The notes: generated from the sequence alone by a model not told the origin. Shown: positions 15,939-33,969, counted from the stretch's first letter. The stretch: 37,393 nt of DNA from Candidatus Ozemibacteraceae bacterium (GCA_937998695.1 CALLCO010000204.1:1-37393); one strand, 5' to 3'. Numbers and translations are program-made.

Positions 15939-18900
15939 ATGGTATCATGCAAGCCGATCATGAACCAACCGCCACCTGCCTTCGCCCGCCACCCCCCCCT
16001 CCCGGCAGGCGGGCCGTGGCCTCCGGCCAACCCCGACGGCTCCCGGCGACCCGTCGGCTTTTTCTGGTTTCCGTGGGGCAAGTGGCTGATCGCCATGGTC
16101 GTCTTCTTCCACCTCCCGTTCCTGTTGCTCAATTTCGGCATGGGAACGCTGTGGACCCGCCGCGAAACCCAGGCCCGGGAACAGGCCATGAACCAGCTCG
16201 AAATCCATGTCTCCGATTTGGCGGTCCAGGGGAACACACGAGGGTTTATTTCTCGTTCTCTGCAGCGCGTCCATGACGAGGCCTCGGCTTTTCCGGCCCG
16301 GCGACCAGCCATTTTGCGGCGCTGGCAACGTCTTCTCGATCGCGAGTTTCCCAGGTTCTTCCATTGGTATGTCACCGACCGAAATGGCGATCTGATCGCC
16401 GAATGCTCTTCTCCCCAGGCGCCACGCCGGGTCATCCGCGAGTTGTATCAGGTGGCGGTGTCGAAGTGGCGCAACGACCCACAGCATGATGACCTGCGCC
16501 GACGATTCCAGGAGCGAATCTGGCCGTTCATCGGGCCCCAGGCCCGCAGGGATTTCCTGGCCCCGCTGGGTCCGGGACAGTCGACCATCATGGCGGAAAC
16601 CCGGTTCGGGGAAGAGAAGACCTTCTTCTTCATCCACCTCACCGCTGAGGGAGCGCTGTTCGCCCACATCAACCAACGGCCCGACTGGGCTCGACGAGCG
16701 CTCGACGTTCTGGTGCGACGCTTGAACCGGCGACGCGGGCCGATGGGCTGGCGGGCCGGGACACTCATCCCCAGCGAAACCAAACCGCTTCATCCCGAGG
16801 TGGCCGCGGCCCACCTCGCTTTCGAGCGCACCGGGCAGGCCCGGTATTTCGGCCGGACAAGCCTGGTCATCTTCCGCCGTATCCATCCAGGACTGCTGCT
16901 GTGGCTGCAGCGTCCCGCCCCCAGCGACAAGATCGCACAGCAAGCCCGGTGGTGGCTCGTTCTCGGCGGAGCCCTCCTCGGGTTCCTGATCCACGTGGGG
17001 AGTTTCCGGGTATTCAGCGGGCGCTGGCCGCTCACCCTGTCGATCCGACATCGCCTGATCCTGTTGTTTCTGTTCATGGCCGGGCTTCCCCTGCTGGCGG
17101 TGTGGTTGTTGGGGGTCGATTACCTTTCCCGCCAGGAGGGCATCCTGCGGGCCCGCGCCGAAACCGAGATCCAGGATACCTTGCGCGGCTTCGACCAGCA
17201 GTTTCTGCGCGAACTGTCCCTGTTGAACGACCGCCTGCGCGAGGCCATCGACCTGTCCTTCGGCTGGGGGGGGAAACGGCCGCCCGTGCCCCAGCGGAGG
17301 AGTCGCTGGTTCCGTCGACAGTTCCAGGTCGAGAAACTCTACCTGTTCGATCAAGCGGGCCAGGTCGTCTATTCCCACCCCCCGCCCGGGGATGAAGGGA
17401 CCGAAAGCGAACGGCGGTTTATCGGCAAGCTTTCGGCCAAAGCGTTGCGCGATCTCAATCAGGAACCCCCCACCGAGGCGGGCCAGGCAACCGACCTCGT
17501 CTGGTCGGCCATCGGGGGCGACGAGGAGAGTTGGAAAGGGATCCTGCGCGACCTGGGCAAAATCGTGTATTTCGATCTTTCGGGCGAACAGACCTACGCC
17601 TTCATGCACGCCATCAAGGATCGCTCGGGAATCAGTCGCCGGTTTATCGTGCTCACCTGGCAACGGCAGCACTTGCACACCCAGTTCGTCCGCAAGCACC
17701 TCCTTGAGCAGCAACGCCTTATTCCCGGCGGACGGCTGTGGGCAACCACCCCGACGGGGGGGATCGTGGCCGCCCCAACAGAGCTCGACCGGCTAAACCC
17801 GCGGTTGTTCCAGCGGTTGGCCCCGCTGCTGAACGCGCGTCAGAGCACATCATTCCGGGTGGGGAAAGGTGACGCCCCCCGATTGCTGGTCGGGTTCGCC
17901 GCCCGGGAAATGAATGGCCTGATCCTGTGGGGGGCGCGAACCGAGAGCGACATCCAGCGCGACCTTCACCAGTTCAGGTTCGGACTGGGACTATTCCTGG
18001 CCGGCATCGCCCTGCTCGCCCTGGGGCTCGGTGGCCACCTGTCCGAGGGTTTCCTGGTGCCGGTGGCGGACGTGTCGCGGGGGGTGGAAGCCATCCAGCG
18101 ACGCGACTTCCGGCACCGGGTGCCGGTCGGCCCACCCGACGAACTGGGGCGCCTAGCCGCCACCTTCAACCAGGTCATGGAGGGGCTCGCCGACCTCGAG
18201 GTCGGCCGGTTCGTCCAGGAGAACCTGATGCCGCGCGAGGAGATCGTCTGGGGCGAGTATCGGGTGTTTGGGCGCAGCCGGTTCCTGACCGCCCTGTCGG
18301 GCGACTATTTCGATCTGAAAGTGCTGCCCGGGAACCGACTGTTCTTTTTGGTCGGCGACGTGGCGGGGCACGGGGTGGGCGCGGCGCTGGTCATGGCGAT
18401 GGCCAAGGCGCTGGTCGAGCGGGAGATCCCGCGCGGGACGACGGCGTCCGGCTTCCTGACGATCCTCAACCAAGTGCTGCGGGCCACGTTGCGCCGGGGC
18501 AGCATGATGACGTGCGCGGTGGGCCTCCTGGACATGCGGACGCACCGACTCAGCTTTGCCAACGCCGGCCAATGCCCGGCGGTGCAGCTCACCGGGCCGG
18601 ACACGTGGCAGGAGGTGGCGCTTCCTTCCAAGCCCCTGGGGGTCAGCAGCTCATGGCAGGGGAAGGAGCTGATCGAGGAGTTCAGCCCTGGTCACCGCTG
18701 GCTGCTGTTCACCGACGGTCTGATCGAAGCCAGGACTCCCGGCGGGATGCTGGGCTTCGCCCCCTTCCAGGCTGCCGCCGCCCGCCTGGTCGGCAGCAAC
18801 CCCCGGGCCGGCTGGGAGGCCTTGATGGCTTGGCACGACGCCGCACGCCAGGGCATTCCCCCCACCGATGACATGACCCTGCTCATCATTGCCCGGCACG

Positions 18901-18947
18901 GGGAAGCAGACTCGACCTCCGAGGCCACCGGAGCCTTCCGGGCTTGA
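15939..18947 (+). CDS. SpoIIE-type PP2C phosphatase A with two sensor segments and HAMP (1002 aa)
   Basis: A membrane Ser phosphatase, likely acting on STAS-type anti-anti-sigma proteins. I start at MVSCKPIM (15939), with GAAGG about 9 nt upstream; the track uses a GTG at 15876 and MNQPPP (15960) is also possible. Order of parts: proline-rich cytoplasmic tail; TM1 about 48-68; sensor segment 1 about 75-330 (includes WYVTDRNGDLI, as in Cache/PAS-like folds); TM2 about 336-355; TM3 about 370-395; sensor segment 2 about 400-675; TM4 about 680-700; HAMP about 700-755 (ending PPDELGRLAATFNQ); PP2C about 770-990. Metal-binding motifs are intact: GDYFD, GDVAGHGVGAAL, NAGQ, FTDGL, DDMTLL. It shares its whole plan with phosphatase B, so the two are paralogues. 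It is not in an operon. Confidence 0.92.
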   Translation: MVSCKPIMNQPPPAFARHPPLPAGGPWPPANPDGSRRPVGFFWFPWGKWLIAMVVFFHLPFLLLNFGMGTLWTRRETQAREQAMNQLEIHVSDLAVQGNTRGFISRSLQRVHDEASAFPARRPAILRRWQRLLDREFPRFFHWYVTDRNGDLIAECSSPQAPRRVIRELYQVAVSKWRNDPQHDDLRRRFQERIWPFIGPQARRDFLAPLGPGQSTIMAETRFGEEKTFFFIHLTAEGALFAHINQRPDWARRALDVLVRRLNRRRGPMGWRAGTLIPSETKPLHPEVAAAHLAFERTGQARYFGRTSLVIFRRIHPGLLLWLQRPAPSDKIAQQARWWLVLGGALLGFLIHVGSFRVFSGRWPLTLSIRHRLILLFLFMAGLPLLAVWLLGVDYLSRQEGILRARAETEIQDTLRGFDQQFLRELSLLNDRLREAIDLSFGWGGKRPPVPQRRSRWFRRQFQVEKLYLFDQAGQVVYSHPPPGDEGTESERRFIGKLSAKALRDLNQEPPTEAGQATDLVWSAIGGDEESWKGILRDLGKIVYFDLSGEQTYAFMHAIKDRSGISRRFIVLTWQRQHLHTQFVRKHLLEQQRLIPGGRLWATTPTGGIVAAPTELDRLNPRLFQRLAPLLNARQSTSFRVGKGDAPRLLVGFAAREMNGLILWGARTESDIQRDLHQFRFGLGLFLAGIALLALGLGGHLSEGFLVPVADVSRGVEAIQRRDFRHRVPVGPPDELGRLAATFNQVMEGLADLEVGRFVQENLMPREEIVWGEYRVFGRSRFLTALSGDYFDLKVLPGNRLFFLVGDVAGHGVGAALVMAMAKALVEREIPRGTTASGFLTILNQVLRATLRRGSMMTCAVGLLDMRTHRLSFANAGQCPAVQLTGPDTWQEVALPSKPLGVSSSWQGKELIEEFSPGHRWLLFTDGLIEARTPGGMLGFAPFQAAAARLVGSNPRAGWEALMAWHDAARQGIPPTDDMTLLIIARHGEADSTSEATGAFRA

Positions 18948-19192: not shown

Positions 19193-19984
19193 TCAGAAGG
19201 CGGGGCCGACGATCGGAGCGTGCCAGACATAGTTCATGTGGGGATGGTTCCACACCGCGTTGAAAAACTCGGAATAGACCACGTCGGAAACATCGATGAT
19301 CTGCGGCCCGGGACCGGGGCCTGTCCTTGGGCCCGTCCCGGCCGCCGGCTTTCCCAGTTGCAGCGTGATATGAAAACAGAACAACCGGCCTGTCGCCGCC
19401 GCCCCCAGCTCGACGGGCTGGATGGCCAGGAAGTTCACCTGGGACGACAACACCTGCGTGCGCACCCGTCCCTCCGGCAGGCCGGGAGGTGGCACTTCGG
19501 TGCGGACCAACTGCCAGAAGGGGCCTGGCCGGGTGGGAGCGGCCTGCAACCGGTAGGTGACGCGCACTGCGAACCGCGGAGCGGGGCCGGTGCGGATGGC
19601 GGTCGAGCAGGCGGCGGTCACTTCCCCCTCGTGTGGGAACCGCAGGAACGACCAGGTCATGCCCTCGAGCGGGTGGGAACCGGATCCCGGACGCACCTGC
19701 ACCAGCCGGGCGAAATCCTGCACAAACCCCTCGGGGCCGCGCTCGAAGCAGGACATCTTCAGATCCTGATGGATCTGCTGGATGACCCGCCGGGCCTCGA
19801 GCGTCAGATCGACCTGTCTGATGCCATGGAGAGAACTGTCGAGGTTGGCCCGCAACACCCGCCAGGCAACCCCGAGCAGGAGGATGGCCAGGGTCACCGC
19901 GACCAGGATCTCGACGAGGGTGTATCCGCCTGCCCGGCGCGTTTCACGCAGGGAAGGCAAGACACCAGCGAAGCGTCGGCTCAT
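19193..19984 (-). CDS. PilW/GspJ-like minor pseudopilin (263 aa)
   Basis: The N-terminal prepilin signal is RRAGG-YTLVEILVAVTLAILLLGVAWRVL: basic leader, Gly before the cleavage site, Glu at +5 of the mature protein and one hydrophobic helix. The long C-terminal beta-rich part fits the PilW/GspJ group, which helps prime pilus or type II secretion pseudopilus assembly. The ATG overlaps the stop of the upstream pseudopilin as ATGA (19981-19984). It is the last gene of a four-gene operon; no clear terminator follows it. Confidence 0.82.
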   Translation of the reverse strand: MSRRFAGVLPSLRETRRAGGYTLVEILVAVTLAILLLGVAWRVLRANLDSSLHGIRQVDLTLEARRVIQQIHQDLKMSCFERGPEGFVQDFARLVQVRPGSGSHPLEGMTWSFLRFPHEGEVTAACSTAIRTGPAPRFAVRVTYRLQAAPTRPGPFWQLVRTEVPPPGLPEGRVRTQVLSSQVNFLAIQPVELGAAATGRLFCFHITLQLGKPAAGTGPRTGPGPGPQIIDVSDVVYSEFFNAVWNHPHMNYVWHAPIVGPAF

Positions 19985-20544
19985 CGCGGTTGCTCCACCA
20001 GCAGGGCGGTCATCGCCACCTCCTCGCGCCGCAGCCAGACCTGGGCCCGGGTGGCCCCCCGGGGCCTCACCCGTACTTCGACCAGCACTCCGGCGACCGG
20101 CGCGGAGACGGGAGTCAGGGTGATCTCGCGCTCGAACAGGGCGCAGTCGACCGGCCGGTGCAAGACGCCGCGCCCCGGTTCGATCACGTTGGTGCCCAGC
20201 GGAAACTCGGGCAGCGGGTGGGCATGGTAGTCCTTCACCCAGGCCGCCCCCAAGCCCCGGAAGACCTCGATGGGCTCCAGGGCCATCTGGACGGCGAGGA
20301 ACTCGAACTGGGCATCCATGGCCCCCAACCGAGAGCGGCTCACCATCACCAGCGCCCCGATCAGCACCAGCGACAGGATCAACAGCGAGATCAGCACCTC
20401 GACCAGGGTGAACCCGCGCCGGGCATCTCGGCATCGCGCGGGCGGGCGAAGGTGGCCTGCAGATGTTCGGGCCGAAAGAACGCCTCGATTTTCCCAGACA
20501 TCCTGCCTGTTCCGCGGGCCATTGTCCATTTTCCGACAGGTCAT
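19981..20544 (-). CDS. PilV/GspI-like minor pseudopilin (187 aa)
   Basis: The prepilin site is RRG-FTLVEVLISLLILSLVLIGALVM, with Glu+5 present. If the ATGA-coupled ATG at 20544 is used, the leader before the cleavage Gly is about 44 residues, which is long (6-25 is usual). A downstream start is therefore possible, but the 4-bp overlap with the preceding stop favours 20544. The size and the place beside K- and J-like proteins fit the I/V component of a pseudopilus tip complex. Processing would need a prepilin peptidase, which is not in this window. Confidence 0.82.
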   Translation of the reverse strand: MTCRKMDNGPRNRQDVWENRGVLSARTSAGHLRPPARCRDARRGFTLVEVLISLLILSLVLIGALVMVSRSRLGAMDAQFEFLAVQMALEPIEVFRGLGAAWVKDYHAHPLPEFPLGTNVIEPGRGVLHRPVDCALFEREITLTPVSAPVAGVLVEVRVRPRGATRAQVWLRREEVAMTALLVEQPR

Positions 20545-22610
20545 GGGGCACCCTCCGGAGCATCAGGGATCCATCGATGAAAGCTGACCCAGCGCGACAG
20601 GTTGACCACATAGCTGGCACGATCGGGCGACTTCAGCGCCGGATCGTAGGCCAGCCGGTGGGCCACCCCGATCGCCCAGCGCTCGGTGGCCAGTCGGTCG
20701 ACGACAATCGCCCCCCGCAGGTCAAGGGCGCGGCGCGCCAGCACAGCCCCGGTCTTGGCGTCGTTGACCGCGACGAGGGCGGCCTCGATGCGGCGGTCGG
20801 TCTCGACCACGATTGGACCGCGCCGGGCGAAGAGCACGCACAGGTCATCGGGCCGCGCCTTGACCAGGCTTCCCCGCACGGTGATGGCCGGAGCGACCAG
20901 CACGCCCTGGCCTTCGACCGTCCACGGGCTCTCCGGATCGCCCAATGACAGATCACCCGCCACGTGAACAATGCCGTTCAGCCGCACCACCCGACGCCGG
21001 GAATCGAGCAGGCCCAAGCCCTCGAGGGTCGCAGGGTCGGCGGGGCACTGCCGGCGATGCCACAGGCTGAAGTGCCCCCAGGGCCGGAACCCGGTGGGGC
21101 CGGTCGTCGCCTCATCGATCGCCAGCCCCGTCCGATCGAAAAACCGGGGAAGGGGAAACTGGTCGGCGACGGGCGGGTGGGCCGGATCGCCGCTCGTCGT
21201 GCCGTATTTGAACGAGGCTTCGGCTTTCGAAGTGAGCAGCGGCGGGTGCCGGCCATCGACCTCGGGCAGGGCGGTCAGGAAAGCAACCTGTTCGCTGGTC
21301 ATGTCGGGAGGCGGCACCGACGGCAACGGCACACAGGGTGTCCGATAGGCCAGGTCTTTCAGCTGATCGGCCTCGGCGGCCAGATCGGCGCGGCTGCGGA
21401 TCGCGGTCCAGGCCCCGTCGAGGAAGAGGCTCGCCTTGTCGAGATCGACATAGAAATGACTGAACACATGGAACCGCTGGCGGATGGCACCTTCAAGGAT
21501 CGAACCAACGAAGCCGGGATCGGCCGCCCTCCCGGGATCGCCCGAGACGATGGCCAACCCGGGGTCGAGATTGGCGGCGGCGCCCTCGAGGGTGAGAGCC
21601 AGCAAGTCCCGGTTCTTCTCCCAGAACCGGTCTTCAGACGTAACGGGTGCGGCGTGGAACAGCGGTCGATGGGCGAAGGGGAAGACGCCCTCGATGCCCT
21701 GCCAATCGCCCGGCGAATCCCAGCTCGGAACGAGCGTCAGCACATCATCTTGGGGGATGCGGTATTCCGTCATGAGCGGCGGGGGAATGAGCCGCTCGAA
21801 TGGGGGGGCGAGGTTCAGGAAGACGTAGTTCTCGCGCGGCAGCTGCCCCGCCGCGGCCGTCGACGGCTTCGTGCTGTCGGTGCCGCCGAAGAAGACCTTC
21901 CCCCGGCGACCGGCCGGCAGGTCGTCTTGGGTGATCGTGAAGGTGAAGGCGGCCGTGTTCAGCGACCGCCCCCCGCTTTCGCGGAACTCGGCCAGCCCAT
22001 CCCGCACCAACAGCACGTGGTCAAGGGCGAAATTGTGGGCATAGGCGGCGCGTGGGCGGGTATTGTCCCGCGGGGTGACCATGCTGACCACCCAGAGGTC
22101 GTGGTGCCGAATCAGGTGGCCGGTGGCGAGGCGGGTACGGCCGAGCAGGCCGCGCTGCCAGAGGGTGGCGGTGATCCGGCATTCGAGAGTGCCGACCCCC
22201 TCGCCCGGCGAACCGTCTGCCGGGCGGAAGAAGGGAGCACCGTCGTGATCGTTGGAGCGGAAGTCAACCAGTCGGGCCTCGGCCGCCAGTTCCACAAACT
22301 GGCCCCCCCGCAACTCGGTCGGCAACAGCCGCCGGACGGCCGGAAGGGGGATGGTGAGCGACTTCGCAGGGCGTTCCCGCACCCAGGCCGCCGTGGCACT
22401 GCGGAAGTCGGAACATTCGCGGTGCAGCCAGGCGAAGGCTTCCTCCATCGCCGATTCGGCCAATCCGCGCACCGTCTCGGCCTGCTCGAACCGGAAAGAC
22501 ACCAGCTGCCCATGTCGCGACATCTGGAGGTAGATCAGCGCGAAGCCCACCGCCAGGATCGCCAGGGCGAGAAGGATGAGCAGAGTGAGCCCCCGACGCC
22601 CATGCCTCAT
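20541..22610 (-). CDS. PilX/GspK-like prepilin-type protein (689 aa)
   Basis: I start at MRHGRRG (22610): its ATG overlaps the upstream stop as ATGA and GGGAG lies 7 nt before. The N-terminus RRG-LTLLILLALAILAVGFALIYLQM is a class III-type signal without Glu+5, as is common in GspK/PilX tip subunits. The mature part is far longer (over 650 aa) than typical PilX (about 150-200) or GspK (about 320). It looks like a multi-domain beta-rich protein with a C-terminal stretch (NGIVHVAGDLSLGD...) that may form a beta-helix. No catalytic motif was seen. It is probably the tip or a surface-exposed adhesin-like part of the pseudopilus. Confidence 0.78.
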   Translation of the reverse strand: MRHGRRGLTLLILLALAILAVGFALIYLQMSRHGQLVSFRFEQAETVRGLAESAMEEAFAWLHRECSDFRSATAAWVRERPAKSLTIPLPAVRRLLPTELRGGQFVELAAEARLVDFRSNDHDGAPFFRPADGSPGEGVGTLECRITATLWQRGLLGRTRLATGHLIRHHDLWVVSMVTPRDNTRPRAAYAHNFALDHVLLVRDGLAEFRESGGRSLNTAAFTFTITQDDLPAGRRGKVFFGGTDSTKPSTAAAGQLPRENYVFLNLAPPFERLIPPPLMTEYRIPQDDVLTLVPSWDSPGDWQGIEGVFPFAHRPLFHAAPVTSEDRFWEKNRDLLALTLEGAAANLDPGLAIVSGDPGRAADPGFVGSILEGAIRQRFHVFSHFYVDLDKASLFLDGAWTAIRSRADLAAEADQLKDLAYRTPCVPLPSVPPPDMTSEQVAFLTALPEVDGRHPPLLTSKAEASFKYGTTSGDPAHPPVADQFPLPRFFDRTGLAIDEATTGPTGFRPWGHFSLWHRRQCPADPATLEGLGLLDSRRRVVRLNGIVHVAGDLSLGDPESPWTVEGQGVLVAPAITVRGSLVKARPDDLCVLFARRGPIVVETDRRIEAALVAVNDAKTGAVLARRALDLRGAIVVDRLATERWAIGVAHRLAYDPALKSPDRASYVVNLSRWVSFHRWIPDAPEGAP

Positions 22611-25213
22611 GGGGGGGACTCCCAACGAACGAAGGTGCTGCGGACCAGCCGGTCCCCCTCACGGCGGAACGGCAGAACGGTGAGATCGACAGGCCGCTGG
22701 ACCAGCCCGGGAGAAAAAGAGCTCCCGGGCGGGGCCATGACCTGATGCTCTTCACCGGCGGGGGTGGTGATCCGCAGCCAGTCCGAGGCCGACTCGGTGA
22801 CCACGCCTTGGATGCGGGTCGGCACCGCGGGAAGGGGCCCCCCTGGCGCGGGGGAGGTGGCGGGACGCTCGACCGACGACAGCAGGCCGAACCACGCCAG
22901 ACCGATCAGAACCAGGCCGACGAGGGCCGGTCCACGCCAGATCTGCCCGAGCTGCTGACGGGTCTCCGGGTCGAGATCGCCGCGCAGCAGGTCGAGCCAT
23001 GGTTCCCACCAGCGCCGCCCGCCCGGCCCGTGCAGGCGGGCCGCGCTATACGGCTTGAGAGGGGCCCGCCGACCGGCTTCCGCCTCTTCCCATTCCTGCT
23101 GCAAGCGCGCGAGCAGTGCCTCGAGGCTCGGCGCCGGACGCCGTCCCAGCCGGTCGAGCTGGGCGAACGTCTCGGCCAGCAGTCGATCGGCCTGGGCAGC
23201 CTGCCCGAGATCGGCGCCCCCGGCGGCAAACTCCTGCCGGAGGGCAAACAGCAGCGGGAAGTTCTCGGGACCGGGGTTGTTGGCGAGCAGCAGCCAGGCC
23301 CCGCGCCGGATCTCGTCGCTGCCTCCCCGCCTGATCAGCGTCCCGACCAGCTCGCGCACCACCGCGAACTCGAAATGGATCAGGCACTCCAGACCCATCT
23401 TCTGCTGGACCACCGTCCCCTCGATCATCACCCGCAAGGCGGAGACGGCCTGGGTCTGGTCGATGGCGCGCAGGGCCTTGAGGGCCGCTCGCCGTACCGA
23501 AGAGCGCCCCGATTTGAGGAACCGGCCGAGCGACACGATCAGGCGCTCGGGCTGGAAGGAGCCGAGATATTCGAGCGCCGCCCCCACCACCCGGGGATCG
23601 GCGTGCCCCAGCAAGGCCTCGGCCTCGGCCAGGAAGCCGGCCGAGCCGGTTCGCAGGAGGGTGCGCAACTCGACCGCCAGCACGGCGGGCGGGGTATCGG
23701 CGGCCCGCAGGCGGCGGCGCAGGTCATCGACACGGGCGGCGACCCAGTCGGCATCGAGCGCCGCCAACCACCGAATCAGACCGGAAGTCGCCGGGTCGGC
23801 AGACGCCGGAACCCCGCCGACCGGCTCGCTCCTGAAAACGCGAGAGGAGCCAGGTGCGGAATCGGCGGCGGGACCGGCCGCAGGACCAGCCGCAGGACCA
23901 GCGGCGGGACCGGCCGCAGGACCGTCAAAGAAAGCGGCGGACGGAGCGGCGGAGCCGGCGGAGGGAAGGGCGGGGCTTTCCCTCAAGTCGGGGTTCAACC
24001 AGGTCGTGATCCAGGTGCGGGCGGACGGGTCCAGATCCCAGGTGGGGGCGTCCGCCAGTTGACGGGCGACCACCGGCGAATGGGCGGCGGCCCTGGCCAG
24101 CACTTCGTTCTCTTCAGGCTCGCGGTCGTCGAGCGTGGTCAGGAAGCGATGTACCCAGCGCCGGGCCGCCCGGTCCTCGGCATGCTCCTGCAGGCGGCGA
24201 CGGAATTCGGTTTCGTCGCCCGGCAGCAGACCGGAGGCCGCCAACGCCTGACAGAGATCGAGCACCAGCGGTTGCAGGTGCCGAATTCGCCGGGGTTCGT
24301 CCTCATCGGCCAGTTCGAGGATCTGGAACGGCAAGTCGGGGTCGGGGTTGTTGCGGACGATCAACAGAGCGCGTTCGAGCAGGTCGGGATCGGTCTCGGT
24401 GGCGAGCAGTTCGAGATAAAGAGGCTTGACCCGGTCGAAGGGGAAATGGACGCTGGCCAGCAGAGCCGCCCGTCGATGCTGGGGATCGGCACTATGGAAG
24501 AGGGCGGCCAGATGCGCGAAGGCCTCGGCCGGGTCGAGTCGCAGGAGGCCGCGAATGGCCAGCCCCCGCAACCGCGGCTCGGGATGCACCAACAGCCGGG
24601 GCAGGCTCTGCAGCAACCGGTCGGGCGCTTGCCGAGCCAGCAACTCGAGGGCGGCCAACCGCACCGCCAGACTGTCAGCCCGCAACAGCGACACCGCCAG
24701 GGGCAACGCGGACGCCGGCCATTCCCCCGCCCAGAGACGCAGGACCCGGGCCTGCACCAACGGATGGGCCGCGGCCGCCACCAGCTCCGCCACGTGAGGA
24801 ACGAGCGCGCGCTGGAGGGCCCCCGAAGCCGAAACCAACGAGCTGGCCTGCCGCGCGGGCCCGGCCTCCCGAAAAGCGCCAAGGAAAGCCTCCGCCATCG
24901 CTTCGTGTCGCGCCGTTGTCTGCGCCGCAGATGCGGAAGCGCCACCCCCCGCGTTATCGGGGCCAACCGCCGCGGCTGTCACGCTCGTCCCGGCCGCTCC
25001 GTCCCCCGAACCGCTCACCCGTGTACGCAGGATGTGGAGGGCATGCTCCAGGGCGATCCGGCATTCTTCGTCGTCTTCCCGACCGCGCCGTTCTTCGAGG
25101 ATCGGCACCCAGGGATCGGCCTCGCCGCGCCGGATGATCTCCTCGATCGCCATCAACCGGAACGAGCGGAAGGGAGCTTCCAGGTCACGTCGCAGAAACT
25201 GCTCGCCGCTCAT
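22607..25213 (-). CDS. HEAT-repeat membrane protein of the pseudopilin operon (868 aa)
   Basis: I start at MSGEQFLRRD (25213), with AGGGGA upstream. Residues about 140-330 and 520-640 are tandem helical HEAT-type repeats (e.g. LAVRLAALELLARQAPDRLLQSL), separated by a low-complexity linker (AAGP repeats). A single TM (ALVGLVLIGLAWFGLL, about 762-782) precedes a small C-terminal beta domain of about 80 residues. The large N-terminal part should therefore be cytoplasmic and the small domain periplasmic, if the positive-inside rule holds. It opens the operon and is coupled by ATGA to the PilX/GspK-like gene. HEAT proteins are scaffolds, so a role in assembling or regulating the pseudopilus machine is a reasonable inference. 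Confidence 0.8.
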   Translation of the reverse strand: MSGEQFLRRDLEAPFRSFRLMAIEEIIRRGEADPWVPILEERRGREDDEECRIALEHALHILRTRVSGSGDGAAGTSVTAAAVGPDNAGGGASASAAQTTARHEAMAEAFLGAFREAGPARQASSLVSASGALQRALVPHVAELVAAAAHPLVQARVLRLWAGEWPASALPLAVSLLRADSLAVRLAALELLARQAPDRLLQSLPRLLVHPEPRLRGLAIRGLLRLDPAEAFAHLAALFHSADPQHRRAALLASVHFPFDRVKPLYLELLATETDPDLLERALLIVRNNPDPDLPFQILELADEDEPRRIRHLQPLVLDLCQALAASGLLPGDETEFRRRLQEHAEDRAARRWVHRFLTTLDDREPEENEVLARAAAHSPVVARQLADAPTWDLDPSARTWITTWLNPDLRESPALPSAGSAAPSAAFFDGPAAGPAAGPAAGPAAGPAADSAPGSSRVFRSEPVGGVPASADPATSGLIRWLAALDADWVAARVDDLRRRLRAADTPPAVLAVELRTLLRTGSAGFLAEAEALLGHADPRVVGAALEYLGSFQPERLIVSLGRFLKSGRSSVRRAALKALRAIDQTQAVSALRVMIEGTVVQQKMGLECLIHFEFAVVRELVGTLIRRGGSDEIRRGAWLLLANNPGPENFPLLFALRQEFAAGGADLGQAAQADRLLAETFAQLDRLGRRPAPSLEALLARLQQEWEEAEAGRRAPLKPYSAARLHGPGGRRWWEPWLDLLRGDLDPETRQQLGQIWRGPALVGLVLIGLAWFGLLSSVERPATSPAPGGPLPAVPTRIQGVVTESASDWLRITTPAGEEHQVMAPPGSSFSPGLVQRPVDLTVLPFRREGDRLVRSTFVRWESPP
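23871..23923. repeat. 12-bp tandem repeat inside the HEAT-repeat gene
   Basis: About 4.4 copies of ggaccggccgca with few changes, translated as repeated AAGP. The number of copies could vary without a frameshift, changing the length of the linker between the two HEAT blocks. Confidence 0.85.
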
Positions 25214-25726
25214 TCCCATTCCCCTTTCCCGGCACCCGGCCATCGGTTCGCTCCCCAGGCCCCGAGCTGGATCGGCTCCGCATGGGTGGCATCATCCCGT
25301 CGGGCCCGGTCACCATCTTACCAGTTTCCCAGCGCCCGGTCAGGAAGTGCCTCAGGCCAAACAGGGTCACGTGCTTCGCCGGCCATCGTCCTGGCAACCA
25401 GGGCCTGGGGCCGGGTTTGTTTCCGAGCCCATTCTGCCAGCTCGACTCGGCCGAGGGGCGGCCCTGTGGCCTCAGACTCGGCCAGGCTCGAATCTGATTC
25501 CAACCTCGCCGACGCCCTGGGCCGCCCCCGGGCGGGGCGGCCCCGGCCCTCCGAGCTTCGCGGGACGTCGATTCGGCTACGCCTGGCTGGCCCTCGGAGC
25601 GAATGGAGCGGCCTGCCCGCAGAGAGGGCTTCCATGCCCGCCCCCACCTCAAGAAGCAGGCATTGGGCCTGCACTCCGGCCACCAAACCGGAAGCGTTCC
25701 CTCACCTGTGATACCATAGGGGGGTC
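25214..25726. other. Divergent intergenic region between the pseudopilin operon and the STAS gene
   Basis: No supported gene. The minus strand has an extended -10 (TGGTAAGAT, near 25312-25320) that could serve the operon, with a poor -35. The plus strand has TGATACCAT (25709-25717) 10 nt before the STAS start codon. The motif cgcgggacgtcga near 25560 recurs at about 8101 inside the inverted-repeat element; this may be chance. Confidence 0.4.
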
Positions 25727-26089
25727 ATGAGTACGACAGGCCACCATTCCATCGAGACTGAGATCATCGACGCGGATACCGCCGTGATCCGGTTCCAGGG
25801 CTATCTGGGCGAAGAGGCAGGAGAAGAACTGATGCGCGTCAGCGAACCCCTCCTGCGGGGCGGGCACGTCCGGCTGGCGCTGGGCATCACCCACTGCCCG
25901 GCCATCGCCAGCCCGGGAGTGGCGTGGCTGATCGAGCTCATGGAGCGGGTGACCGGCGATTTCTCTGGCGACCTCGTGTTCTTCGGGCTCGACAAGAGCC
26001 AGGTCGAGCTGCTGACCTTCATGGAGGTCCTGACCCAGGTGCCGCACGCCCCCAGCGAAACCGACGCGCTCGATCTGCTCCGGAGCTGA
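25727..26089 (+). CDS. STAS-domain anti-sigma-factor antagonist (120 aa)
   Basis: A single STAS domain of the SpoIIAA/RsbV class fills the protein. Such proteins are released to bind an anti-sigma kinase when a PP2C phosphatase removes phosphate from a Ser. Here the equivalent site is IASPG (Ser62), where RsbV has MDSTG, so the acceptor Ser is kept but the preceding Asp is Ala and the next residue is Pro. GGGGGG lies very close to the ATG, and TGATACCAT upstream may be its -10. It is the only candidate substrate in this window for the SpoIIE-type phosphatases, but no HPK anti-sigma kinase is nearby. Its 3' end overlaps the end of a minus-strand ORF. Confidence 0.82.
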   Translation: MSTTGHHSIETEIIDADTAVIRFQGYLGEEAGEELMRVSEPLLRGGHVRLALGITHCPAIASPGVAWLIELMERVTGDFSGDLVFFGLDKSQVELLTFMEVLTQVPHAPSETDALDLLRS

Positions 26090-26510
26090 GGACGCCGTTT
26101 CCGCACCACCACCGGCCGTTCCCCTCTTGGACAAAGATTAGGAGAGGGTCGTCGCGACCCGCCCCAGCCGGAGACCGGCGATGAACGGGTCGCGACGGTG
26201 GTTCGGGGGGAGCTCCGGAACGCTCGAACAAGCTCTGGGCCAGCTTGACCAAGCGCCTCAGGCAGAACTGCAGGTCGCTCTTGGCCTCTTCAAACCGGTC
26301 GAGGGCGGCCGCCACAACGGCGGATTCTCCAGTCAGAGCGGTGAGCGTGCGGCCGCCTTCGCGTTCGAGGTCGGGCAGACCCCGTCCCACGGCCGCCACT
26401 TCCTGGCGCAGCGCTTTCTTCTGATCCTCGTTGGGCAGGAACCCCATCGATTCGCTCGCCAGGCGGCGCAACCGGGCCTGCTCGGCTTCGAGAATCTCCC
26501 GAACGGTCAG
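26019..26510 (-). CDS. Helical protein of unknown function, coupled to the anti-sigma gene
   Basis: The segment from LTVREILEAEQARLRRLA onward has coding-like codon use and predicts an amphipathic, Glu/Arg/Leu-rich alpha-helical bundle of about 100 residues. No family was recognised. No ATG or GTG exists at its beginning: a CTG at 26510 overlaps the anti-sigma stop as CTGA, and the first ATG is at 26447. Rare CTG initiation by coupling or a frameshift from the anti-sigma gene are both possible, and a -1/+1 shift would make one longer anti-sigma protein. The last 24 codons are antisense to the STAS gene and may not be functional sequence. Confidence 0.5.
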   Translation of the reverse strand: MTVREILEAEQARLRRLASESMGFLPNEDQKKALRQEVAAVGRGLPDLEREGGRTLTALTGESAVVAAALDRFEEAKSDLQFCLRRLVKLAQSLFERSGAPPEPPSRPVHRRSPAGAGRDDPLLIFVQEGNGRWWCGNGVLSSGADRARRFRWGRAAPGSGPP

Positions 26511-27100
26511 TGGCCGGCGTCGACGTCGGCCCCGGGGCCGGCGGCTCCCACGGTGGCGGACGACGGGGCGGACGTGGTGAAGGGGGTGATCGCGCCCGCG
26601 AGGGAGGCGGGGGCGGCGAGGGTGGCGGCGGAGGCGGTCAGGGCGGTGCTTCCCGCCGCACCCGTGGGCCCCACGGGGACACTGACAGCCGGTTTGGGGT
26701 CGGGGCCAGACAACCCGCTCCGTGGCTGGGTCGCCCACCACCCGCCGATGGCCAGGGTCGCCACGACCACCACGGCGGTGCCACCCAGGCCGGCCAGGCC
26801 TCCGGTGGCCCCTGCTCCAGCGGCCGCGCCGGCGCTAAGTCCGGGAGCGGAGCCGGGGCAGGTGCCCCCGCCCCCGTCGCCGGGGAATGGAGTCTGATGG
26901 ATCAAGTTCTTGATGCGCTCGGCCCCGGCGGCAAACGCTGCGGGCCGGTAGAGGGAGCCCAGTCCCTGCAGATCGCCCAGCCGGCTCTGGAACTCCCGGC
27001 AGGACGGGCAGGCGGCCAGGTGCTGCAGGACGGCGGGAACGGTTCCCTTCCCATCGATCAGGGCTTCCTGGATGCGATCGCACTCACCGGACTGGCTCAT
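26507..27100 (-). CDS. Zinc-finger anti-sigma factor (197 aa)
   Basis: The N-terminus carries a zf-HC2/ZAS-type zinc site: Cys7, then His27-x3-Cys31-x2-Cys34 (HLAACPSC). This matches anti-sigma factors that clamp ECF sigma factors. A Gly/Ala-rich linker leads to one TM (about 101-122, GLAGLGGTAVVVVATLAIGGWW). A Pro/Ala/Ser-rich, low-complexity tail follows, presumably periplasmic. The start overlaps the sigma gene by 17 bp, so the pair is co-translated. The rhomboid protease at 35.5 kb is not linked, and how the sigma factor is released is unknown. Confidence 0.85.
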   Translation of the reverse strand: MSQSGECDRIQEALIDGKGTVPAVLQHLAACPSCREFQSRLGDLQGLGSLYRPAAFAAGAERIKNLIHQTPFPGDGGGGTCPGSAPGLSAGAAAGAGATGGLAGLGGTAVVVVATLAIGGWWATQPRSGLSGPDPKPAVSVPVGPTGAAGSTALTASAATLAAPASLAGAITPFTTSAPSSATVGAAGPGADVDAGH

Positions 27101-27638
27101 GGTCCGCCTCCTTGGCCGTGGGCCCTGTCAGCTTCGCCAGGGCCCGATGGACCTTGACCCGCAGGGCATTTTCGGTCTCGCCGGTCAGTTCGGCCAGATC
27201 GGCGAACGACAAGCCCTTGAACACGCGGGCCTCGATGAGGAACCTCGTCTCCTCGTTCAGGGTGGCCAGGAAATCCTGCATCGCCACCCGTTTGACCGCT
27301 TCAGATTCGGGGTCGGGCAGCTCGGCGGGCGGAATGGCCAGGAGCACGCGCTCCTCGACCCGCCGGCGCCGCACCAGATCGATCAGGGCATTCTTGGCGA
27401 TGGCCGCCACGAAGTTGAAGAACTTGTTCTTGGGATCAAACTGCCGGATGTTGAGAAACGCCTTCAGGAAGGATTCCTGCGCCACATCCTCGGCCACCGG
27501 GGCAGGTGCCCCCCGCGCCCGCAACAACCCCACGAGCAGAGGGAAGTGGCGGTCGACGAGGGTATCGAACCACTGCCGGTCGCCGTTCTGCACGCGGACG
27601 ACCAGTTCGGCATCGGGAAGGTGCGAACCGAGGGTCAT
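27084..27638 (-). CDS. ECF-type RNA polymerase sigma factor (184 aa)
   Basis: Region 2 is seen in DAELVVRVQNGDRQWFDTLVDRH and the -10-binding stretch AEDVAQESFLKAFLNIRQF. Region 4 is seen in FLATLNEETRFLIEARVFKGLSFADLAELTG followed by the recognition helix ENALRVKVHRALAKL. The start MTLGSHL (27638) has GAGGAG 5 nt upstream. The gene heads a three-ORF unit with its membrane anti-sigma factor, so its activity is probably controlled by an envelope signal. On the minus strand, GGAAAT near 27749 with a following GTATC resembles an ECF promoter only weakly. Confidence 0.93.
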   Translation of the reverse strand: MTLGSHLPDAELVVRVQNGDRQWFDTLVDRHFPLLVGLLRARGAPAPVAEDVAQESFLKAFLNIRQFDPKNKFFNFVAAIAKNALIDLVRRRRVEERVLLAIPPAELPDPESEAVKRVAMQDFLATLNEETRFLIEARVFKGLSFADLAELTGETENALRVKVHRALAKLTGPTAKEADHEPVR

Positions 27639-28264
27639 TGCTCTCCTCTGCGACCTGGGGGAAGGTATCAGTATGGAATGTGGTCTCCCCCGTGGGGGCG
27701 GTGGCAAACCGCCGGTGTTGGATTGATACCATGTTTAGCACCTGATTTCCACCTTTCGCGGGGTGATGCCCCGTCGCCTCATGGGCATCATCGCCTTGTA
27801 GTCACCCCCTGAGACGGATGACCGGGCCGGCACATTACACGGAATTTCCGCTACTGGAACATCTCGGCCAACGGGAACAGCCAGCCCTCTTCTCCTCCCC
27901 CTGGTTTTTTCCTCCAGGGTTCCCTCGCGCACTGCAAGGAAAATGGCCAACGTCCGTCCCGCACAAAGATTGCAGAGGGGCTGAGGAAGCAATCGAGCGG
28001 CAAATAAGGAGAAAGGGAGACTCCAGCATCAGGAATGAGCCCTTGATCCCGGAAGGAGATTGGGGAAGGGGGGGAAGGGGCATAGGGGGCCGTCCGTCGA
28101 TCGTCGAGGGAGGAATCGGGCTGAAACCAGCTTCCAAAGATGATCTGCGTGGTTCCTTCCCGGCGGCGGAATTTTTGTGTAATGCCGGCGGGGGGGGGTG
28201 ATCGTCTTCAGGGTGAAATCGGCCCCGCGATCGAACACACGAAAACGAGGAAGGAGAACGAACG
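27639..28264. other. Divergent intergenic region between sigma factor and secreted protein
   Basis: The track ORFs here (such as 27818..28201) lack ribosome sites and recognisable features. A plus-strand TGATACCAT (about 27723-27731) could be an extended -10. The minus strand may hold the sigma-operon promoter. A run of ten G (28188-28197) lies about 65 bp before the next gene. Confidence 0.4.
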
Positions 28265-30906: not shown

Positions 30907-33900
30907 TCAGACCCGGCGTTCGAGGACGACCACCGTGAAGTCGTCGGGGCGCGGCCGGCCGGCCTGGACGCAGGGGTGGCGCTCGACCAGCAGGCGGGGC
31001 ACCTGATCGAGAGGCTCGCCACTCCACCGGATGAAGTGAGGCAGGAGTTCGTCGAACCCTGAAGCTCCCTTGACCCGTGACAGCGATTCCGCCAACCCGT
31101 CGGTGTAGCAGAGCAGACGTTCCCCGGGCTGCAAGATCAGCCGCCGCGGCTCGACCTTGACGGTCGGACGGATGCCGATGGGGAAGCCGCGCGTGGGCTG
31201 CTCGCGCAGGCGCCCATCGACCGTGCGCAGGTGCGGGTAGGTGTGGCCGCAGTTGAAGATCTCGAGCTCGCCGGGGGCGGTGCCGGTCCGCACCAGGGTC
31301 ATGGGCAGGAAGGCCCGTTTCCCCATCGTGGAATAGACGACCTCGTTGAGCGTCGCCAGCAGTTCGGAGGTCGGGACCCGCTGCCGGCGTGCCGCCAGGA
31401 CGGTGGCCTTGGCCATCGCCATGATCAGGGAGGCCGGCACGCCGTGGCCCGAGACGTCACCCAACAGCACGGTCAGGCTGCCATCCTCTTCCGCCACGTA
31501 GTCGAAGTAATCACCACCCAGCTCGGAGGCCGGCAGGGAGAACCCCGCCACGGCCCATTCCCCCGCCGCCAGGAAGGCCGGCGGCCACAGGCGTTCCTGC
31601 ACCGCGCGACCGAGGCCTAACTCCTCGAACCGTTCCAGCAGGCTGTTGAACGCGGTGGCCAGCTCGCCCAGCTCGTCACGATCGCCGGGCGGCAAGCGGC
31701 GATCGTACCGCTTGGCGGCGAGATCGCGCAGACCATCCCCCAAATTGGCCACCGGGCCGAGGACCGCCCCCGCCAGCAGATGGGCCAACAGCGCGGTGAA
31801 CACCACCGCTCCCAGCGCCGACCAGAGCATGCGCGTCCGCAGCGCGCCCAGTGCCGCCTCGAGGGGAGCGGCCGGCACGAACGCCAGCAGCAACCGCCCA
31901 CGCATCTGCTGTCCCGGCCACCCGGCGATCAGGCGCGGCTGCCCTTCGAAGGGGATCATCCCCGTGGTCAGCTGCCCGCGTCGACGCAACGCGTGGAAGA
32001 AGGCCCGCAGGGGCCGGTTGACCCGCAACCAGGGGCGCATGGGAAAAACCGCCCGCACCGTGTCCGGCCGCTCGGGGGTTTGCCCCGCCCCGGTCAGCCG
32101 ATAGACCGGCGTCTCGCGCACCGCCGCCAGACGGGTGCCGTCCTCGAGGGGCCGCACCGGCAGAAAGCGACGCAGATGGAAGTCGACCAGATCCTCGTAG
32201 CGCCAATACAGCACGATCAGGGCGGGTCTCGGCCTGGCCTGGCCGATCAACTCGGAAAAAAGGAAGCCCTGCTCCCGACCCCACCCGAACGGCACGACCC
32301 CACCCGTGGGGAATGGAAATGGGGTGCAACCATACGGCAGCTCCGGGACCGGCACCGCGGCGGGAGGCCCCCCCGCGCGGATCGCTCCTTCCACAGCCGC
32401 CGCCGGGCCGGAAGCCCTTGGCCACCCAGCCGATCCGGCAGGGACGGCACCCGCAAGGTGCGAGGCCAGCATCTCCAGGACGGGGTTGCCGTGGAACGTC
32501 CCACCGATTTCCCGAACCGGTTCCCCCGGGCGCCACAGGAATCCGCCCCGGGCGCGCAGTTCCGGGATCTGCTCGGCAAAGGCCAGGCCTAACCGCTCGA
32601 GGGGGACCGGGGGTACGGAAGCCGCCGGTGGCAGCAGGCGCCGAACACTCGCTTCCGCCTCGATCCGGCCAAGGGCCAGCTTGCCGTCGAAATCGCGGAG
32701 GAGGTCGGCCAGCCGCTGCCAGGTCTCCTGGAAGAGGATCTGCCGGCGCTGGTGCAGGTGGTCCCAGGCCAGGAAACCCAGGATGGTGGCGGGAATGACC
32801 GCGGTCAGCGCGAACAGGGCGAGGATCTTCCAGCGGATCGACACGAACGGGCGCTGCGACGACGCGGTCAGGAAGAACAGCACGGTCGCCAGACCGACCA
32901 GCAGAGCGAGTTCTCCCCACCGGAAGGCGGTCCTCAGCTCGTGATCGGCGGTCCCGCCGTCATCGGGGGCGGCCGCGGCCAGCAGATAGCGGGAATCCAA
33001 CCCCAGAGTCGCCCATAGGTGTCCGCCCTGCCGGAGGCGTGTCCCGGGTTCGTGGGCATAGCGGGCCCCGATGGTGTCGAGGTCGTGGCGTGGACCGCCC
33101 ATCGGCCCGGCCACGAGACGCCGCGCCTGCAGATCGTACAGGAACAACGACCGTTCCGGAGTAGAGCGGGCGAGCAAGGCCCGACGAAGGCCGACCTGGG
33201 GGCCACGGAGGAGCGCCATCGGTGCCACCCCAGGCCCATCCCTGCCGGGCGGCGAGGTGGGTCTGCGGAGGAGCGTCATCCCTGGGGGCCGGGCGACGGA
33301 GGGGAGCCACCCGTCCGCTTCCCCCTGGAGGCCGGGTTGATCGGAATGACGGTGGAAAAAGGCGAGCAACCCCCAGGAAGGGGCGAGATGAAAGAAGACA
33401 CCCGCCTTGCGCGCCCGATCGGGGAAAGCCAGCCAGCCCGGCGCCGTTTCGAGGGCGGCAAGATCGGCAGGCTCACCGCCAAGCAGGTCGGCCACAGCGG
33501 CGGCCCGGGGGGCGAGGCGGCCAGCCACCCGCCCCCGGTCGCGGCGCAGGGCCGCCATCAGGGCTTCGGCGGGGGCAGCGGGTTCCTTCCCCCCCACCTG
33601 CGCGACCAGGCGGTCATCGGCCCCGAACAGGAGGAAGGTCGCCATCCCTGGGAAGCGCCGCGCCTGAGCCCGGGTGCGGGCCTGCAGGAAGCGCATCGGT
33701 TGGGGGTGCCGCAAGGCCCGCCGGACCATCGCCCGCCACGACCGCCGCGCCGCCTCGCCCGGGTCGGCCAGCGGTTGCAGCTCGATCAGCAGGTCGTCCA
33801 GGGCGGCCCAGGTCAGGCTGCGGGCCGCTTCCCGGCGGGCGTCGAGCAGGGCCCCCAGGCCGAAATCGGCCAGCAGCAGGGGGAACCCGCCGACCAAGGT

Positions 33901-33969
33901 CAGCAGGATCCAGGTGCGCAGGGCGGCCGGCCGCCGGTCAGCCGCGGGCGGAAGATGCATCGATGACAT
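30907..33969 (-). CDS. SpoIIE-type PP2C phosphatase B with two sensor segments and HAMP (1020 aa)
   Basis: Paralogue of phosphatase A. Order of parts: TM1 about 19-41 (TWILLTLVGGFPLLLADF); sensor segment 1 about 45-350; TM2 and TM3 about 356-410; sensor segment 2 about 415-710; TM4 about 713-738; HAMP about 740-790 (ending RDELGELATAFNSLLERF); PP2C about 805-1018. Metal-binding motifs are intact: GGDYFDYV, GDVSGHGVPASL, NCGH, YTDGL, PDDFTVVVL. Residues about 229-258 encode the 60-bp repeat (MTLLRRP... and MALLRGP...). A perfect TATAAT sits 8 nt before the ATG at 33969, so the mRNA is probably leaderless. ATG 33960 (MHLPP) is an alternative with equally little ribosome site. A STAS protein would be the expected substrate type. 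Confidence 0.92.
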   Translation of the reverse strand: MSSMHLPPAADRRPAALRTWILLTLVGGFPLLLADFGLGALLDARREAARSLTWAALDDLLIELQPLADPGEAARRSWRAMVRRALRHPQPMRFLQARTRAQARRFPGMATFLLFGADDRLVAQVGGKEPAAPAEALMAALRRDRGRVAGRLAPRAAAVADLLGGEPADLAALETAPGWLAFPDRARKAGVFFHLAPSWGLLAFFHRHSDQPGLQGEADGWLPSVARPPGMTLLRRPTSPPGRDGPGVAPMALLRGPQVGLRRALLARSTPERSLFLYDLQARRLVAGPMGGPRHDLDTIGARYAHEPGTRLRQGGHLWATLGLDSRYLLAAAAPDDGGTADHELRTAFRWGELALLVGLATVLFFLTASSQRPFVSIRWKILALFALTAVIPATILGFLAWDHLHQRRQILFQETWQRLADLLRDFDGKLALGRIEAEASVRRLLPPAASVPPVPLERLGLAFAEQIPELRARGGFLWRPGEPVREIGGTFHGNPVLEMLASHLAGAVPAGSAGWPRASGPAAAVEGAIRAGGPPAAVPVPELPYGCTPFPFPTGGVVPFGWGREQGFLFSELIGQARPRPALIVLYWRYEDLVDFHLRRFLPVRPLEDGTRLAAVRETPVYRLTGAGQTPERPDTVRAVFPMRPWLRVNRPLRAFFHALRRRGQLTTGMIPFEGQPRLIAGWPGQQMRGRLLLAFVPAAPLEAALGALRTRMLWSALGAVVFTALLAHLLAGAVLGPVANLGDGLRDLAAKRYDRRLPPGDRDELGELATAFNSLLERFEELGLGRAVQERLWPPAFLAAGEWAVAGFSLPASELGGDYFDYVAEEDGSLTVLLGDVSGHGVPASLIMAMAKATVLAARRQRVPTSELLATLNEVVYSTMGKRAFLPMTLVRTGTAPGELEIFNCGHTYPHLRTVDGRLREQPTRGFPIGIRPTVKVEPRRLILQPGERLLCYTDGLAESLSRVKGASGFDELLPHFIRWSGEPLDQVPRLLVERHPCVQAGRPRPDDFTVVVLERRV
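33196..33283. repeat. 60-bp-period repeat inside phosphatase B
   Basis: The units gaggagcgtcatc (ending 33280) and gaggagcgccatc (ending 33220) are exactly 60 bp apart. On the minus strand they read gatgacgctcctccgcagaccc and gatggcgctcctccgtgg, the same core as the left-edge repeat (gatggcgctcctccgcggaccc). Here the gene reads the strand opposite to the one read by the left-edge gene. Confidence 0.8.

Follow-up and report, generated by a model that had tools for sequence, protein, structure and literature searches.

Within a 37,393-nucleotide stretch of DNA from Candidatus Ozemibacteraceae bacterium (GCA_937998695.1 CALLCO010000204.1:1-37393), the whole of which is referred to here as the window, three prepilin-type proteins, designated K, I and J, are encoded in the company of a protein composed of HEAT repeats, a transmembrane (TM) segment and an OB-fold domain (HEAT-TM-OB), an extracytoplasmic function (ECF) sigma factor with a probable anti-sigma factor, a STAS protein and SpoIIE-type phosphatases, and from the gene content of related loci it is near certain that these genes travel together as a cassette. 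We give an even chance to the reading that the Ozemobacter family possesses several paralogous pilus-tip cassettes under regulation, each equipped with a HEAT adaptor, and that this locus is one of them. The window belongs to a 4.5 Mb genome of 324 contigs (G000), from the same genus as Candidatus Ozemobacter sibiricus BY5 (G001; QOQW01000001.1; hereafter O. sibiricus) and from the phylum Candidatus Riflebacteria.

Four open reading frames are located on the minus strand between positions 25213 and 19193, in the order HEAT, K, I and J, and each of the three junctions (HEAT/K, K/I and I/J) consists of a 4-nt ATGA overlap. All four frames are open and coupled in the manner described by the initial annotation of this DNA, which was made from the sequence alone. 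Overlaps of the same length (-4) recur in paralogues, at the H-K junction in L078 and L082, at the K-I junction in approximately 12 loci and at the I-J junction in approximately 20. No GspE/PilB ATPase, secretin or prepilin peptidase gene is present in the window, and, in line with that annotation, no pilus core gene adjoins the four-gene unit; the rest of the host genome contains 4 secretin matches, 2 peptidase matches and 28 T2SSE-family matches (a large number of PilB/GspE-family ATPases for a single 4.5 Mb genome), with the ATPases and secretins situated on other contigs.

The association of these genes is repeated across the family. Both K and HEAT exist in multiple copies; nearly every genome of the host's taxonomic family has strong K matches, which do not extend beyond that family, and the K-I-J-HEAT set occurs as up to ≈10 paralogous cassettes per genome. 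Among 47 K-family loci, for which contig ends cut many of the stretches, I and J are both found within ≈9.5 kb in 45, an ECF sigma factor in 29, HEAT in 27, STAS in 20 and SpoIIE in 19. Considering the 14 K genes of two well-assembled relatives, O. sibiricus and G007, a HEAT gene lies within 10 kb of 12, versus ≈3.5% expected from whole-genome density, while STAS (11/14; expected 0.077), SpoIIE (11/14; expected 0.14) and sigma factor genes (8/14; expected 0.096) are similarly close, with the reservation that paralogues, although not entirely independent of one another, count as independent in the P values of these enrichments. HEAT directly adjoins STAS or ECF in most cassettes, and in one locus (L081) the whole cassette is arranged as a single operon, HEAT-STAS-ECF-antisigma-K-I-J, with RsbU adjacent. 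The HEAT gene is thus not absent from the cluster in all relatives, the condition under which its proposed membership of the minor-pilin cluster was to be abandoned; it is found beside minor pilins there. In the collection of papers searched, none joins HEAT repeats with minor pilins and the type IV pilus, and none brings together three or more of these four: HEAT repeat, minor pilin, ECF sigma factor, STAS. Two observations on individual loci may be added: a contig titled Candidatus Methylomirabilis (DYKG01000029.1; L133) carries this cassette and appears to correspond to G009:C80, which was placed in the Ozemobacter family here, so that the public label looks wrong, and an AAA/NACHT-TPR protein of 1577 amino acids (L082:2811-7544) is encoded with a 4-nt overlap with the HEAT gene of another HEAT-K-I operon.

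The link to pilus assembly comes from the core pilus operon. On contig C114 of the host genome the gene order is a pilM-pilN fusion, pilO, a PilP-like gene, a lipoprotein gene, pilQ, STAS and HEAT-OB, and this arrangement, pilMN-pilO-pilP-like-lipoprotein-pilQ-(STAS)-HEAT, is family-wide, with PilM, PilN, PilO and Secretin confirmed by Pfam; in no fewer than 14 genomes of the family a HEAT gene comes after pilQ, with a gap of ≈2 kb in two of these. The operon resembles PilMNOPQ of type IVa pili in its Pfam-confirmed PilM, PilN, PilO and secretin, yet differs from it in the fusion of PilM to PilN (in one protein at L076:176-2017, with PilM_2 at 55-381 and PilN at 508-586, and in the equivalents L162-L178; apparently family-wide) and in ending with a (STAS +) HEAT-TM-OB gene. 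We know of no described pilus operon that ends with such a gene. The core HEATs form a single clade of 18 sequences (Shimodaira-Hasegawa-like approximate likelihood ratio test, SH-aLRT, 100), apart from the cassette HEAT radiation, in a quick tree containing several long branches. Since the OB tail is present in 24/24 family genomes as opposed to 0/16 other genomes of the phylum, and since HEAT directly follows none of 30 secretin genes in those 16 genomes (flanks of at most ≈1.4 kb having been fetched), HEAT-OB seems to have been added beside the core machine in this family specifically, and would have expanded with the tip cassettes later or in parallel. Most core pilQ-HEAT loci contain no STAS, sigma or phosphatase gene in the fetched stretch, which associates HEAT-OB more closely with the pilus machine than with the switch.

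The HEAT-TM-OB protein of the window (22607..25213, minus strand; 868 amino acids; Pfam HEAT_2 6.8e-16, 58.8 bits) has no N-terminal signal and a single hydrophobic segment at approximately residues 763-781, beyond which ≈87 residues remain; a C-terminal tail of 84-103 amino acids after a single C-proximal TM segment is kept in most or nearly all HEAT relatives. Because a signal sequence is lacking and the only TM segment is near the C-terminus, the HEAT part of ≈750 residues is very probably cytoplasmic, with the small OB-fold tail outside, and the periplasmic HEAT domain of the initial annotation has to be given up. The model of the tail is a five-stranded OB-type beta-barrel (predicted local distance difference test score, pLDDT, 88), the structure and profile matches of which are generic OB folds, all weak; a PilP/GspC-type identity of the tail was considered and is unsupported by these best profile and fold matches. 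Outside the pilin-bearing loci, the HEAT-STAS-SpoIIE set in L073 and L150 adjoins a short flagellin-like protein (Flagellin_N 1.5e-32), and in L074, L155 and L157 the HEAT-OB lineage, without STAS, adjoins ABC-2-type exporter-like genes. A broader class of HEAT-STAS-SpoIIE loci free of pilins was partly an artefact of the K threshold, as L151, L152 and L154 carry divergent K and/or I/J; the flagellin and ABC-2 cases stand. For the initial annotation as a whole, the observation is confirmed and the interpretation partly supported: its suggestion of a variant tip or assembly platform is still alive given the HEAT-pilin linkage and the core-operon orthologue, without its periplasmic HEAT domain and its four-gene scope, the actual cassette being larger (with ECF sigma, anti-sigma, STAS and SpoIIE-type phosphatase genes) and multi-copy.

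K (20541..22610, minus strand) is a giant minor prepilin-like protein of 689 amino acids and a candidate tip subunit, for which no Pfam or NCBIfam match was obtained. Its N-terminus (GRRG/LTLLILLALAI) together with a 64-residue helix in the model corresponds to a class III prepilin leader and hydrophobic helix. The AlphaFold model (pLDDT 90.2; predicted TM-score, pTM, 0.86) displays pilin strands at 104-178, followed by a long insertion, which has a beta-helix at its end (≈541-637), and by the final long strand (666-683), and within the family the N-terminal helix and beta-helix region are kept, with the middle (≈320-360 and 400-500) being most variable. In the O. sibiricus orthologue (L078:11161-12546), the equivalent of window residues ≈255-479 is missing in frame, which reflects either a naturally shorter variant or an error of assembly. 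GspK, GspI and GspJ constitute the tip trimer of type II pseudopili, and the present genes share with these the order K-I-J and a K that is far larger than the others and lacks Glu5; in contrast, no Gsp core genes are nearby and 0/26 K proteins, that of the window included, match the T2SSK/GspK family models. The resemblance of K is greater to ComZ of Thermus thermophilus, a tip pilin with a solenoid inserted after its penultimate and before its last pilin strand (PMC6561018), than to GspK, the GspK/X-like assignment made initially. ComZ (6qvi, E 5e-4) was the sole match of a PDB fold search with an E-value below 0.001, at low TM-scores of 0.16-0.22. The predicted secondary structure of K fits a solenoid between the penultimate and last strands; the insertion is near the last strand, whereas that of GspK is described as lying between strands 3 and 4 (PMC6561018). 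Like ComZ, K is a very large minor prepilin encoded with smaller ones, and it would share with ComZ a beta-solenoid-type insertion at this position (PMC6561018). They differ in that the K family has many paralogues and that ComZ is from a competence locus, for which no HEAT, STAS or sigma factor is reported in the parts of the source that were consulted (PMC6561018). With TM-scores this low and no sequence similarity to ComZ, the model indicates a likeness in plan rather than demonstrated descent.

The two smaller prepilins are more conventional. I, an I/V-like minor prepilin (19981..20544, minus strand; N_methyl 1e-8; TIGR02532 over cut-off), comprises 187 amino acids from its ATGA start; since this start gives a 42-amino-acid leader that is unconserved in O. 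sibiricus, versus 4-7 amino acids in most paralogues, the true start codon of I is uncertain, even though the overlap itself is real. J, a J/W-like minor prepilin of 263 amino acids (19193..19984, minus strand), carries the motif GG/YTLVEILVA, co-occurs with K family-wide and has an N_methyl match (3e-4) just under the cut-off (20.6 versus 21.2 bits).

A full set of regulatory genes, namely STAS, ECF sigma, anti-sigma and SpoIIE/RsbU-type phosphatases, is found within 15 kb in the window. The STAS (SpoIIAA/RsbV-like) protein (25727..26089, plus strand) is encoded divergently from HEAT; its family profile matches 4hyl (2.6e-10) and 1th8 (6e-10), a STAS domain match is obtained in 18/19 family members at E-values of up to 1, with the window member on its own being weak (E 0.18), and Ser62, at the phospho-acceptor position, is invariant in 19 members. 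The ECF sigma factor (27084..27638, minus strand; Sigma70_r2 2e-12, Sigma70_r4_2 1.5e-9) is clear, and its O. sibiricus orthologue is 93% identical with the same neighbours alongside. The overlapping gene (26507..27100, minus strand) encodes a probable membrane anti-sigma factor, called by an HxxxCxxC-type zinc-finger-like motif (HLAACPSC), one TM segment and gene order; it has no Pfam match of its own, its equivalents in other cassettes carry zf-HC2/FecR, and its O. sibiricus orthologue is located directly after the sigma gene. FecR-domain proteins, some with zf-HC2, are also found near ECF sigma and HEAT genes in L109, L110, L151 and L075, suggesting anti-sigma factors of the surface-signalling type. 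Two membrane sensor phosphatases of the HAMP-SpoIIE type are encoded, one RsbU-like (15960..18947, plus strand; SpoIIE 9.4e-34, HAMP 1.6e-9), whose start at 15960 was deduced from conservation with O. sibiricus, and a second (30907..33960, minus strand; SpoIIE 1.9e-35), with a syntenic copy in O. sibiricus that is 73% identical. Order and content in O. sibiricus are largely as in the window, with two extra SpoIIE genes between sigma and STAS.

The sigma, STAS/HEAT and RsbU units share a 9-mer, ATGGTATCA, which is positioned 12 nt before the RsbU-like gene start (15939..15947, plus strand), in the divergent intergenic region of STAS and HEAT (25709..25717, minus strand; TGGTAGCA at the equivalent place in O. 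sibiricus) and upstream of the ECF sigma gene within a conserved block (27724..27732, minus strand; identical in O. sibiricus). The window contains three copies versus 0.05 expected, and 0/100 shuffles reach three; since the motif was first noticed at two of its places, the third alone counts as an independent hit. All three places are conserved in O. sibiricus, where they follow the pattern TGnTAnCA. For the remaining cassettes an equivalent could not be established, since divergent regions overlap there and AT-rich genomes inflate the counts of shared 9-mers.

In Rsb-type systems, SpoIIE phosphatases act on STAS proteins, and the window encodes two SpoIIE-type PP2C phosphatases and a STAS protein with a phosphorylatable serine, without an RsbW-like kinase in the locus. 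A comparable partner switch in Nostoc punctiforme, Hmp (HmpU phosphatase, HmpV STAS, HmpW kinase), is tied to type IV pilus-driven motility and is similar in linking a SpoIIE-type phosphatase and STAS to type IV pili, the STAS output being other than a classical sigma factor (PMC6495340, PMC8256260). Unlike the multi-copy, kinase-lacking Ozemobacter cassettes, Hmp is a single locus including its own kinase, and no HEAT or minor-pilin genes are reported for it in the parts of these sources that were consulted (PMC6495340, PMC8256260).

A role of K, I and J at a pilus tip appears likely. They would form an alternative priming/tip complex with K outermost, its insertion and beta-helix serving as ligand-binding head, placed on pili made by shared type IV machinery encoded elsewhere. 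HEAT-OB may then be an inner-membrane adaptor, each cassette supplying its own, whose cytoplasmic solenoid would touch PilM, PilB or STAS and whose periplasmic OB domain would touch PilNOP or the nascent tip; its tie to the pilus is the orthologous HEAT-OB gene that comes straight after pilQ in the core pilMNOPQ operon. The phosphatases would sense a signal from outside and thereby set the STAS phosphorylation state, which together with the sigma/anti-sigma pair would determine the cassette to be expressed or admitted. We propose the adaptor role and the signalling direction tentatively, at somewhat below an even chance, and throughout we infer physical contact from the company that the genes keep. 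In its most far-reaching form, which is possible though doubtful, HEAT-TM-OB would be an undescribed inner-membrane type IV pilus component, with a housekeeping copy associated with PilMNOPQ and cassette copies that each license one K-I-J tip, such that one and the same machine would exchange its tips under the control of the partner switch and the sigma factor.

Several results weigh against a tip cassette with its own adaptor and switch. Some K-I-J sets lack HEAT (G007:C7, G007:C44:285k and several g4 loci) and some HEATs lack K-I-J (those by the flagellin gene and by the ABC-2 exporter), and therefore neither strictly needs the other. The core loci being mostly free of STAS, sigma and phosphatase genes, the link to the switch is not universal, and an RsbW-like kinase is encoded in none of the cassettes, the strong HATPase_c_2 genes of these genomes being located either on different contigs or at a distance from K loci. 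The sequence similarity of K to ComZ is undetectable, in addition to the low TM-scores of the fold match. Finally, the co-divergence of H and K within cassettes (r 0.81 versus 0.70±0.04 with HEATs swapped within genomes, p 0.001), which exceeds what the common ancestry of the genomes provides and counts in favour of the cassette reading, can come from linkage alone.

This last point bears on the notion that expanded HEAT, STAS, SpoIIE and ECF families are near pilins by accident or block duplication: block duplication does account for part of the co-divergence, and the families are large (e.g. 38 SpoIIE matches in the host genome and 61 in that of O. sibiricus), but neighbourhoods far above genome density, a linkage that holds across genera despite altered order and orientation, and a core HEAT clade vertically kept beside pilQ render such hitch-hiking very improbable. 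If the association is genuine, the flow of information may nevertheless be reversed, with K-I-J as input: the tip would bind a ligand or surface, HEAT-OB would relay the tip state inward onto STAS/anti-sigma and the ECF sigma factor would start an adherent programme, constituting a pilus analogue of cell-surface signalling. In agreement with this proposal, HEAT and K-I-J have sigma/anti-sigma genes, and in some loci FecR-type regulators too, as immediate neighbours, and the HEAT protein spans the membrane, the bulk of it inside and a small, sensor-like OB part outside; yet the phosphatases have membrane sensor halves of their own, which represent a simpler input, and the core HEAT by pilQ is usually without sigma and phosphatase genes, so that we consider surface sensing rather unlikely.

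The same core loci argue against HEAT-OB being solely a signalling arm, i.e. a scaffold for STAS/anti-sigma outside pilus building, with the pilin genes as regulated output. Such a function would suit the direct adjacency of HEAT to STAS or ECF in most cassettes and its occurrence with STAS and SpoIIE by a flagellin gene where pilins are absent, but it is improbable in view of the genomes (at least 14) in which HEAT-OB directly follows pilQ, mostly with none of the STAS, sigma and phosphatase genes in the stretch retrieved. An equally low probability is given to K-I-J being the pseudopilus tip of a dedicated type II secretion system: the K-I-J gene order, the GspI/GspK-like roles, the homology of type II and type IV tips and the T2SSE-family matches of the host genome (28, not resolved into systems) would be in keeping with it, whereas the core genes gspD and gspE are absent from the window, the K proteins fail to match T2SSK, and the HEAT paralogue is situated with PilMNOPQ instead of Gsp genes.

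Elsewhere in the window, at 2570-5302, a lipoprotein-like protein of 910 amino acids is encoded, with a weak Invasin_D3 match only (E 0.0076, below cut-off).

How one pilus machine chooses among tips, and by which route a signal reaches that choice, are largely open questions in the field. In the Ozemobacter family, tip, adaptor, switch and sigma factor appear to be packaged together in units that recur, while the core pilus operon carries a sister of the adaptor, and these loci would accordingly offer candidates for a new pilus-associated protein family as well as paired paralogues for the comparison of specificity.

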